From assembly GCF_002216065.1 (NCBI RefSeq), contig NZ_CP022282.1:2542001-2606000 (forward strand): a DNA stretch of 64,000 bases, read 5' to 3'. This stretch comes from Chryseobacterium sp. T16E-39. GTDB lineage: Bacteria; Bacteroidota; Bacteroidia; Flavobacteriales; Weeksellaceae. Position 1 is the first letter of the stretch. Each line of letters opens with the position of its first letter. The translations under genes and the position numbers were made by a program. Shown here one piece after another: positions 4,701-5,496 of the stretch. Under the pieces are notes generated by a model that did not search any database, was not told the origin of the DNA, and saw nothing but the letters and a program-made list of their open reading frames with translations.

Positions 4701-4874
4701 CTAGCAATAGATGTATCTGCAATTCCAAATATCAGTAGCCCACTCGCAACATTGGTTATCTTCATTGGAAGTACAGCACACTTTTCCGCGGGTAATGTTT
4801 CCTGCCTTCAGGCTCTTTAGTTCTAATCGATCCAGCTTTCGGCTGCGACTCAAAAGTAAATTAGTTTTTTTCAT
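4701..4874 (-). CDS. Small Cys-rich leader-type peptide (57 aa), third of a cluster
   Basis: Not recognised as a named family. The frame runs from ATG 4874 to TAG 4701 and encodes 57 residues. Residues 13-25 (KLDRLELKSLKAG) match the leader of the two peptide genes upstream ((Q/E)LSR-x2-L-(K/R)-x-(L/V)-LAG). The core holds six cysteines, at 33, 34, 42, 43, 52 and 57, as CC-x7-CC-x8-C-x4-C, ending on Cys. This is the layout of Bacteroidota double-glycine-type bacteriocin or RiPP precursors, with cleavage expected near A24-G25. It is the last gene of a three-gene - strand unit and is followed by the 4639-4670 terminator. Function is inferred only. Confidence 0.75.
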   Translation of the reverse strand: MKKTNLLLSRSRKLDRLELKSLKAGNITRGKVCCTSNEDNQCCEWATDIWNCRYIYC

Positions 4875-4899
4875 TTTAAAATATTTTAGTAATAAAGTT

Positions 4900-5178
4900 T
4901 TAATCGCTGAAACAATAATTCGGACATTGGTCTGCTGTTACATAAGAGTAGGTTCCGCAGTAGCAGGTATGTGTTGGACCTGTTGTGCCTCCACCAGTAC
5001 CTCCACCAGTGGAAGGATTATAAGGAACACATCGTCCATTTTCACAAATCTCACTTGGCCCACAGCCCCCCTCTCCCGGGCCGCCTTCAAAACAATAAGC
5101 AGGTTCTCCAGGAGATCCTGCAAGCAGACTTTTAAGCGTATCCCTGCTTAATTCATTCCATTTAAATTTTGCATTCAT
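4900..5178 (-). CDS. Leader-type Cys/Gly-rich peptide (92 aa), bacteriocin-like
   Basis: Probable secreted peptide precursor. The leader (ELSRDTLKSLLAG, 9-21) ends at A20-G21. It is followed by a four-cysteine module at C29, C39, C45 and C50 (C-x9-C-x5-C-x4-C), a flexible Gly/Thr linker (57-68) and a second module with C72, C74, C85 and C89. The first module has exactly the same cysteine spacing as the neighbouring 84-aa peptide. No signal peptide or membrane segment is seen, so export would need a peptidase-containing ABC transporter; none is encoded in this window. An in-frame ATG four bases closer (5174) is out of frame and was ignored. Confidence 0.8.
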   Translation of the reverse strand: MNAKFKWNELSRDTLKSLLAGSPGEPAYCFEGGPGEGGCGPSEICENGRCVPYNPSTGGGTGGGTTGPTHTCYCGTYSYVTADQCPNYCFSD

Positions 5179-5241
5179 AATTATTTAGTTTTTTAGTAAT
5201 AAAAAATGGTCATTTTCCTGAAATCAGCTGATTCTCTGATC

Positions 5242-5496
5242 CTATGTCGTTTGCTCAGGATCCGGTCCACCTATCCCTCCTCCTGTACTACCACCAGTGC
5301 CACCACCACCTGGATTTCCTCCACCTGTTCCACCACCACTACTTCCGGAAAGCTCACATCCATATGGACCACATACTAATGGATAAAGACATTGTTCTCC
5401 TCTGGCAGAAATGTTGGTACACCCTTCATCACCTCCTGCCAATACTTTTCTTAGAGCTTCTCTGCTCAATTGTTTTTGGGAAATTTTAATTTTCAT
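5242..5496 (-). CDS. Leader-type Cys/Gly-rich peptide (84 aa), bacteriocin-like
   Basis: First gene of the three-peptide unit. The leader QLSREALRKVLAGG (9-22) has a true double glycine. The core has four cysteines at 26, 36, 42 and 47 (C-x9-C-x5-C-x4-C), identical in spacing to the 92-aa peptide. A long Gly/Ser/Thr/Pro tail (50-80) ends in DPEQTT with no second cysteine module. Leaders of this LSR-x-x-L-x-x-x-x-GG kind are known in flavobacterial bacteriocin-like and RiPP precursors. What it does, and whether the cysteines form disulfides or are enzymatically modified, is unknown. Confidence 0.8.
   Translation of the reverse strand: MKIKISQKQLSREALRKVLAGGDEGCTNISARGEQCLYPLVCGPYGCELSGSSGGGTGGGNPGGGGTGGSTGGGIGGPDPEQTT

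Follow-up and report, generated by a model that had tools for sequence, protein, structure and literature searches.

The question raised by this locus is which enzymes could mature and export the products of three neighbouring small genes of Chryseobacterium sp. T16E-39, each encoding a cysteine-rich peptide behind a leader, and what the peptides might do once outside. The window, i.e., the whole stretch of DNA that was analyzed, is 64,000 nucleotides in length (contig NZ_CP022282.1, positions 2,542,001 to 2,606,000). The trio lies between a carboxylesterase gene and an alpha-amylase gene, both unrelated to it, with the following features in the window:

4671–4638, minus strand: 14-pair stem-loop with a T-rich tail, terminator-like, after pep3, where the amylase and peptide genes converge
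4701–4874, minus strand: pep3, 57-aa precursor, leader ending ...KLDRLELKSLKAG, 6 Cys in the pattern CC-CC-C-C
4900–5178, minus strand: pep2, 92-aa precursor, leader ending ...ELSRDTLKSLLAG, 8 Cys in two blocks with a Gly-rich linker between them
5242–5496, minus strand: pep1, 84-aa precursor, leader ending ...QLSREALRKVLAGG, 4 Cys followed by a Gly/Thr-rich tail
5532–5525, minus strand: TATATTTG box, Bacteroidota -7-like, 36 bases before the pep1 start

The three genes and their relatives

A sequence-only reading of this DNA had described three small minus-strand genes with a common leader and had placed them among double-glycine-type precursors. The coordinates of the genes were confirmed, and the leader pattern given in that reading was found in 3 of the 532 window ORFs of at least 25 aa, which were exactly pep1, pep2, and pep3. 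In the window, a looser pattern likewise matched nothing but the trio, and it matched none of 106,400 shuffled ORFs. By sequence, all three leaders end in AG before a small mature peptide, and the class proposed appears to be right.

The pooled dN/dS was 0.15 for pep1 (3 sequences) and 0.10 for pep2 (4 sequences); for pep3, dS was saturated in five of six pairs, and the sixth pair gave a dN/dS of 0.09. These codon comparisons indicate that the trio is under purifying selection, and the three look like functional genes. It is exceedingly improbable that the ORFs are artefacts or what is left of decayed genes. Such a reading could appeal to the comparison of the window peptides with Pfam and NCBIfam, which gave no NCBIfam match and a single sub-threshold Pfam hit, but it is opposed by conservation at the codon level, by synteny, and by the occurrence of relatives in many species; it was rejected on the dN/dS values and is largely refuted at the sequence level. 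AlphaFold gave poor predictions, with a mean pLDDT of 55.5 for pep2 (28 sequences) and 50.3 for pep3 (24 sequences), and PDB sequence searches with the pep2 and pep3 alignments yielded weak hits only (best E 0.18 and 0.59, respectively). No match at E<=1e-5 was observed for pep2 in plasmid records or for pep3 in phage records.

The TATATTTG box, which we take to be a -7-like promoter motif of Bacteroidota, was kept in 4/4 aligned species, in one of which no pep1 was found. One terminator-like site was found in the region, against 1.0 expected from shuffles, and it is by position only that the stem-loop is called terminator-like. Upstream of the 48 leader peptide genes listed for this genome (see below), the -7-like box occurred in 7, against a shuffle mean of 5.4; as it was no commoner than in shuffles, no sign of a shared regulon was seen across the leader genes.

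Homologs of the three peptides, for which a search of Chryseobacterium genomes had been proposed from the sequence alone, were indeed found in a sample of 148 genomes of the genus, T16E-39 included, at a threshold of E<=0.01. Matches to pep1 occurred in 16/148 genomes, strong ones besides the T16E-39 genome itself being limited to G139 and G120, and the weaker ones mostly had the leader and a Gly-rich part in common. The corresponding counts, again with T16E-39 included, were 63/148 for pep2 and 89/148 for pep3, many of the latter being weak. The gene order of the trio was the same in G139 and G120; G112 yielded the 57- and 92-aa genes only.

When named genomes were searched with the pep3 alignment, 37 loci were obtained, each from Chryseobacterium, and in every one of them the pep3 relative was near full length (46 to 57 of 57 residues) and lay beside the amylase gene, with the esterase gene on the other side in 35. 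Across these loci the mature part was nearly unchanged. Neither pep1 nor pep2 accompanied pep3 in 34/37 loci, of which 32 were flanked by both amylase and esterase; pep2 was present at the site in 3/37 and pep1 in 2/37, namely, L180 (same contig as G139) and L179 (sp. ISL-6). The pep2 gene in the four other-species loci shown with one (L090, L094, L106, and L108) occupied a different genomic place. Since pep3 stands alone at the site in most loci and pep2 and pep1 are rare there, pep3 seems to be the original occupant, and the trio seems to have come together later within one clade; judged from these comparisons, the three-gene unit is a local arrangement. Near the pep2 gene of L094, L106, and L108, a second leader-like peptide gene was seen on the opposite strand.

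Kinship with the leader_Chryseo family

The leader layout, the genus, and the cysteine-rich mature parts of the trio are the same as those of NCBIfam NF047798 (leader_Chryseo), which NCBI names “bacteriocin-like protein” and which has a cut-off of 23.5 bits, but the leaders of the trio are divergent (AG, not the usual GG) and fall below the model. In the T16E-39 genome, NF047798 had 60 matches at E<=10, of which 31 were over the cut-off and none was a member of the trio; pep1, pep2, and pep3 scanned alone gave no match at E<=1. To our knowledge, the leader_Chryseo peptides of Chryseobacterium and its relatives have received no characterization.

Relatives of the trio were compared with the same model. 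Those of pep2 carry leaders such as MKNLKKLSREDKKSIVAG, and one of them (L040, 49% identical) passed the cut-off with 29.8 bits; L059 fell below it at 20.3 bits, and L033 had no match. Among the pep3 relatives, L085 and L064 scored 19.7 and 15.8 bits, both below the cut-off, and L061 had no match, and the distant pep1 relative L018 scored 17.2 bits, also below. With a profile built from 45 leaders of the T16E-39 genome, pep1 and pep3 ranked first and second of the 532 ORFs (E 0.15 and 0.17), and 2 and 6 of 1000 shuffles, respectively, scored as well, so that the ranking is not significant; pep2 came at E 18, no better than shuffles. As a sequence test, the profile does not have the strength to establish that the trio belongs to the family. 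The three look like divergent or outlying members of a genome-wide leader_Chryseo repertoire, or like peptides bordering on it. The sequence case for membership is good for pep2, by descent through its relatives, and membership is likely for pep3; that of pep1 is suggested by its leader pattern and position.

The list of leader peptides of the T16E-39 genome, drawn from the regions around most NF047798 matches, comprises 48 peptides, the trio included and 4 false hits dropped. Their mature parts and Cys patterns are very different, and the number of Cys after the leader is even in 47/48 (4 in 15 peptides, 6 in 28, and 8 in 4), the single odd one having 5. About fifty such precursors appear to be scattered round the chromosome. 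The sequence-only reading had called the set a possible orphan: this holds insofar as the flanking genes are unrelated, and fails on the many leader peptides and an exporter locus 1.32 Mb away. As an isolated orphan set, the trio was rejected on the 31 NF047798 matches over the cut-off in the same genome. One leader_Chryseo peptide on the plus strand (L129:15224-15493, corresponding to G000:C1 995223-995492) has a long, Gly-rich, hydrophobic mature part and is weakly microcin E492-like (13.1 bits, cut-off 50).

A distant exporter and VKOR-DsbA locus

The window yielded neither a C39 nor a VKOR gene, and all four C39 peptidase domains of the genome lie outside it, in agreement with the earlier statement that no transporter is encoded near the trio, whose flanks are amylase and carboxylesterase. 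The genome-wide look for a peptidase-containing ABC transporter, also proposed there, gave these four C39 genes, one of them with HlyD, a leader peptide, and a VKOR-DsbA fusion. The loci relevant here are as follows (contig G000:C1):

3870519–3871820: HlyD adaptor, adjoining the exporter
3871891–3872094: leader peptide gene between exporter and HlyD (NF047798, 16.5 bits, below cut-off)
3872144–3874336: C39 peptidase-ABC exporter, 1.32 Mb from the trio
3874684–3876189: VKOR-DsbA fusion, 501 aa, with VKOR and DsbA-like thioredoxin domains
1410000–1429999 (L112): pinensin-type lanthipeptide locus with LanB, LanC, and a C39 exporter
2928000–2947999 (L113): radical-SAM/SPASM gene with a C39 exporter

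Nearly the whole exporter, from residue 2 to 724, can be aligned with bacteriocin ABC transporters of solved structure, 4ry2 among them. In the VKOR protein, six Cys (two in the loop and two CxxC) were kept in 50/50 rows of the alignment, some rows being the same gene twice. The N-terminal domain of this protein bears a weak likeness to C39 (hhalign E 0.0007, probability 26%), apparently without the catalytic part. The corresponding part of the proteins of G240, G195, and G262 scored over the Pfam C39 cut-off with no fewer than the first 25 positions of the profile missing; that of G234 was just below the cut-off.

The three remaining C39 genes have other settings. One belongs to the LanB/LanC locus, which has a pinensin-type precursor leader at 44.2 bits, one to the radical-SAM/SPASM locus, which adjoins a 96-aa candidate precursor unmatched in Pfam and NCBIfam, and the last has as its neighbour a protein whose likeness to JmjC stays under the Pfam cut-off. 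The trio might be substrates of such a distant radical-SAM or other RiPP maturase, in which case the Cys would enter enzymatic cross-links and not plain disulfides. The presence of both loci in the same genome is in keeping with this, as are the scores of the pep3 relatives L085 (24.7 bits, just under the cut-off of 25) and L061 (16.6 bits) against TIGR04149 (GG_sam_targ_CFB), a model for GG leaders of radical-SAM substrates in Bacteroidota. However, both loci have likely precursors of their own, Cys numbers are even in nearly all leader peptides of the genome, and the leaders track the VKOR protein across genomes (see below), so that we regard this alternative as unlikely. The peptides of the window, pep3 included, had no match to TIGR04149, and the genes flanking the trio are not radical-SAM. 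Against the NCBIfam lanthipeptide leader models the trio had no match at E<=1, and L085 reached 10.4 bits with a cut-off of 22. The supposition that the set uses enzymes encoded elsewhere seems right as regards the reliance itself, a radical-SAM or GRASP maturase being less likely than C39/HlyD export with VKOR-DsbA.

Within the family, 178 genomes were examined for an association of leaders with the VKOR protein. Leaders matching NF047798 were found in 54 of them and the VKOR protein in 58. The leader counts are lower bounds, as scoring covered a part of the candidates, and the VKOR matches counted include fragments (G164 and G253) and matches of 26–29% identity (G195, G197, and G240). Both were present in 52 genomes, leaders only in 2, VKOR only in 6, and neither in 118 (Fisher p 1.6e-35); outside the genus, the corresponding numbers were 13, 2, 6, and 116 (p 4.9e-12), and both p-values are optimistic because the genomes share ancestry. 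The two genomes with leaders only, G160 and G290, had one weak leader match each. Within the genus, leaders and VKOR occurred together in 39/41 genomes, and the other two, G141 and G060, had neither, each keeping a C39 exporter. Among the C39-positive genomes, leaders were found in 51/56 with the VKOR protein and in 2/38 without it; outside the genus, these numbers were 12/17 and 2/36. The leaders follow the VKOR protein more closely than C39 exporters in general. Mere presence of a C39 exporter as the explanation of the leader distribution was rejected, the 2/38 genomes above having one weak hit each.

Eleven leader-bearing genomes had exactly one C39 match, and in eight of them it was at or near the VKOR gene (G289, G008, G103, G055, G254, G258, G197, and, by the exporter ORF, G157). 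G289 combines its one C39 match with 27 leader matches. In the other three genomes, both genes were at contig ends (G291), the two were 12 kb apart with VKOR in pieces (G274), or there was no VKOR match (G160). In G150, G253, and G274, the VKOR matches were in several pieces and leader matches remained; G150 also had an intact 29%-identical VKOR match, and G253 had no C39 match. This fragmentation would fit a decaying system, or else incomplete draft assemblies.

We examined 20 VKOR loci, chosen by hand and including that of T16E-39, and called leader-like genes by a regular expression in the stretch shown. A leader-like gene was present in 16/20, that of L232 being doubtful, and in none of L219, L220, L226, and L227; three further VKOR loci, L235 (G340), L237 (G008), and L238 (G103), also had one. 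Identity of the exporter to that of T16E-39 was 86–94% in 15 of the 17 other loci in which an exporter was seen, with 78% in L220 and 75% in L232.

In an order-level sample of 296 genomes, the leader-positive genomes outside the family numbered 4, and all four had a VKOR relative. Conversely, 20/24 VKOR-positive genomes outside the family had no leader match, which implies that VKOR relatives have some other task as well or act on other leaders. The leader, VKOR (47%), exporter (64%), and HlyD (42%) genes are neighbours in G340, a genome from outside the family, and this locus (L235, G340:C4:134000-150000) holds in addition a second VKOR protein, 29% identical. Its composition suggests transfer as a unit.

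Possible export, folding, and role of the peptides

We consider it probable, from the genes and their distribution, that the trio are substrates of the distant C39 exporter and the VKOR-DsbA oxidase, one machine for many dispersed precursors in a microcin-like system. The three peptides would then be precursors of secreted, disulfide-bonded peptides. What the sequences themselves display is the common leader, conserved Cys, purifying selection, and kinship with the leader family of the genus, clearest for pep2 by way of its relatives. We infer that the C39 domain of the exporter binds the leader and cuts it after AG or GG, and the peptide would leave through the exporter, the HlyD adaptor, and an outer-membrane channel. 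The membrane-bound VKOR-DsbA fusion would make the disulfides, and its N-terminal domain, C39-like and apparently devoid of the catalytic part, may hold the same leader. A single machine would thus serve some fifty precursors scattered round the chromosome. Against sharing of one machine stand the trio leaders, unmatched by NF047798 at E<=1, the three other C39 exporters of the genome, and the VKOR genes without leaders in 6 family genomes and in 20/24 outside the family.

The closest likenesses are to systems with double-glycine-type leaders, which together with C39/HlyD export are a hallmark of bacteriocins and their inducers. Class II microcins of the microcin V type are generally known to have such a leader, a C39 ABC exporter with HlyD, and Cys suited to disulfides, features also of the system proposed for the trio. 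The T16E-39 genome has both exporter and HlyD; no exporter gene lies beside the trio, and the present system would differ from those microcins in its precursors without an adjoining exporter gene, in one exporter apparently serving dozens of scattered precursors, and in having a VKOR-DsbA fusion next to its exporter. In the prochlorosins of marine cyanobacteria, too, the precursors are numerous, dispersed, and alike in their leader, and they depend on one distant enzyme; there it is a lanthionine synthetase, whereas here it would be an exporter with a disulfide oxidase. Bacteroidetocins of Bacteroidales are likewise Bacteroidota peptides with a double-glycine leader, Cys, and C39 export, a likeness of general description. 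The peptide kind is already named by NCBI, and the interesting part is apparently the shared VKOR/C39 machine for dozens of dispersed precursors.

The weakest step of the proposal concerns the target. Once outside the cell, the mature peptides would most likely be directed at other microbes, as class II microcins are. They could also be exported and oxidized as proposed and yet not be antimicrobial, being conserved effectors, signals, or envelope components for which the exporter is a general small-peptide route, and we rate the chances of this at somewhat below even. In its favour are the dN/dS of 0.10–0.15, the persistence of pep3 at a single site, its mature part hardly changed, across 37 named loci, the metabolic nature of the two flanking genes scanned, and the widely differing Cys patterns of the peptides of the genome. 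On the other hand, the bacteriocin hallmark mentioned above, the NCBI name of the family, and the weak likeness of one Gly-rich peptide of the genome to microcin E492 (13.1 bits against 50) speak for an antimicrobial role. Strong conservation and many paralogues fit poorly with a plain weapon. More tentatively, and with the odds against it, the VKOR-DsbA protein might read the leader through a peptidase-dead C39 domain and, with the exporter, secrete about fifty disulfide-rich mini-proteins, most of which would be conserved, functional effectors or signals rather than weapons paired with immunity proteins.

Under the shared-machine proposal, the leader_Chryseo family gains a concrete, testable route of secretion and folding, and the knock-out of just one gene, either VKOR or exporter, should be enough to shut off dozens of peptides together. 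A leader-guided disulfide oxidase, if true, would be useful for making disulfide-rich peptides.

In the VKOR loci L228, L218, and L216, many leader genes are followed by a protein of ~275 aa, and the six of these that were scanned were Porph_ging (GLPGLI-type); four other leader genes in L216 had no such neighbour. Judged by eye, only one of the 11 GLPGLI (Porph_ging) proteins of the T16E-39 genome has a leader from the list no more than about 1 kb away. The ~275-aa Porph_ging proteins might be partners or immunity proteins of the leader peptides.
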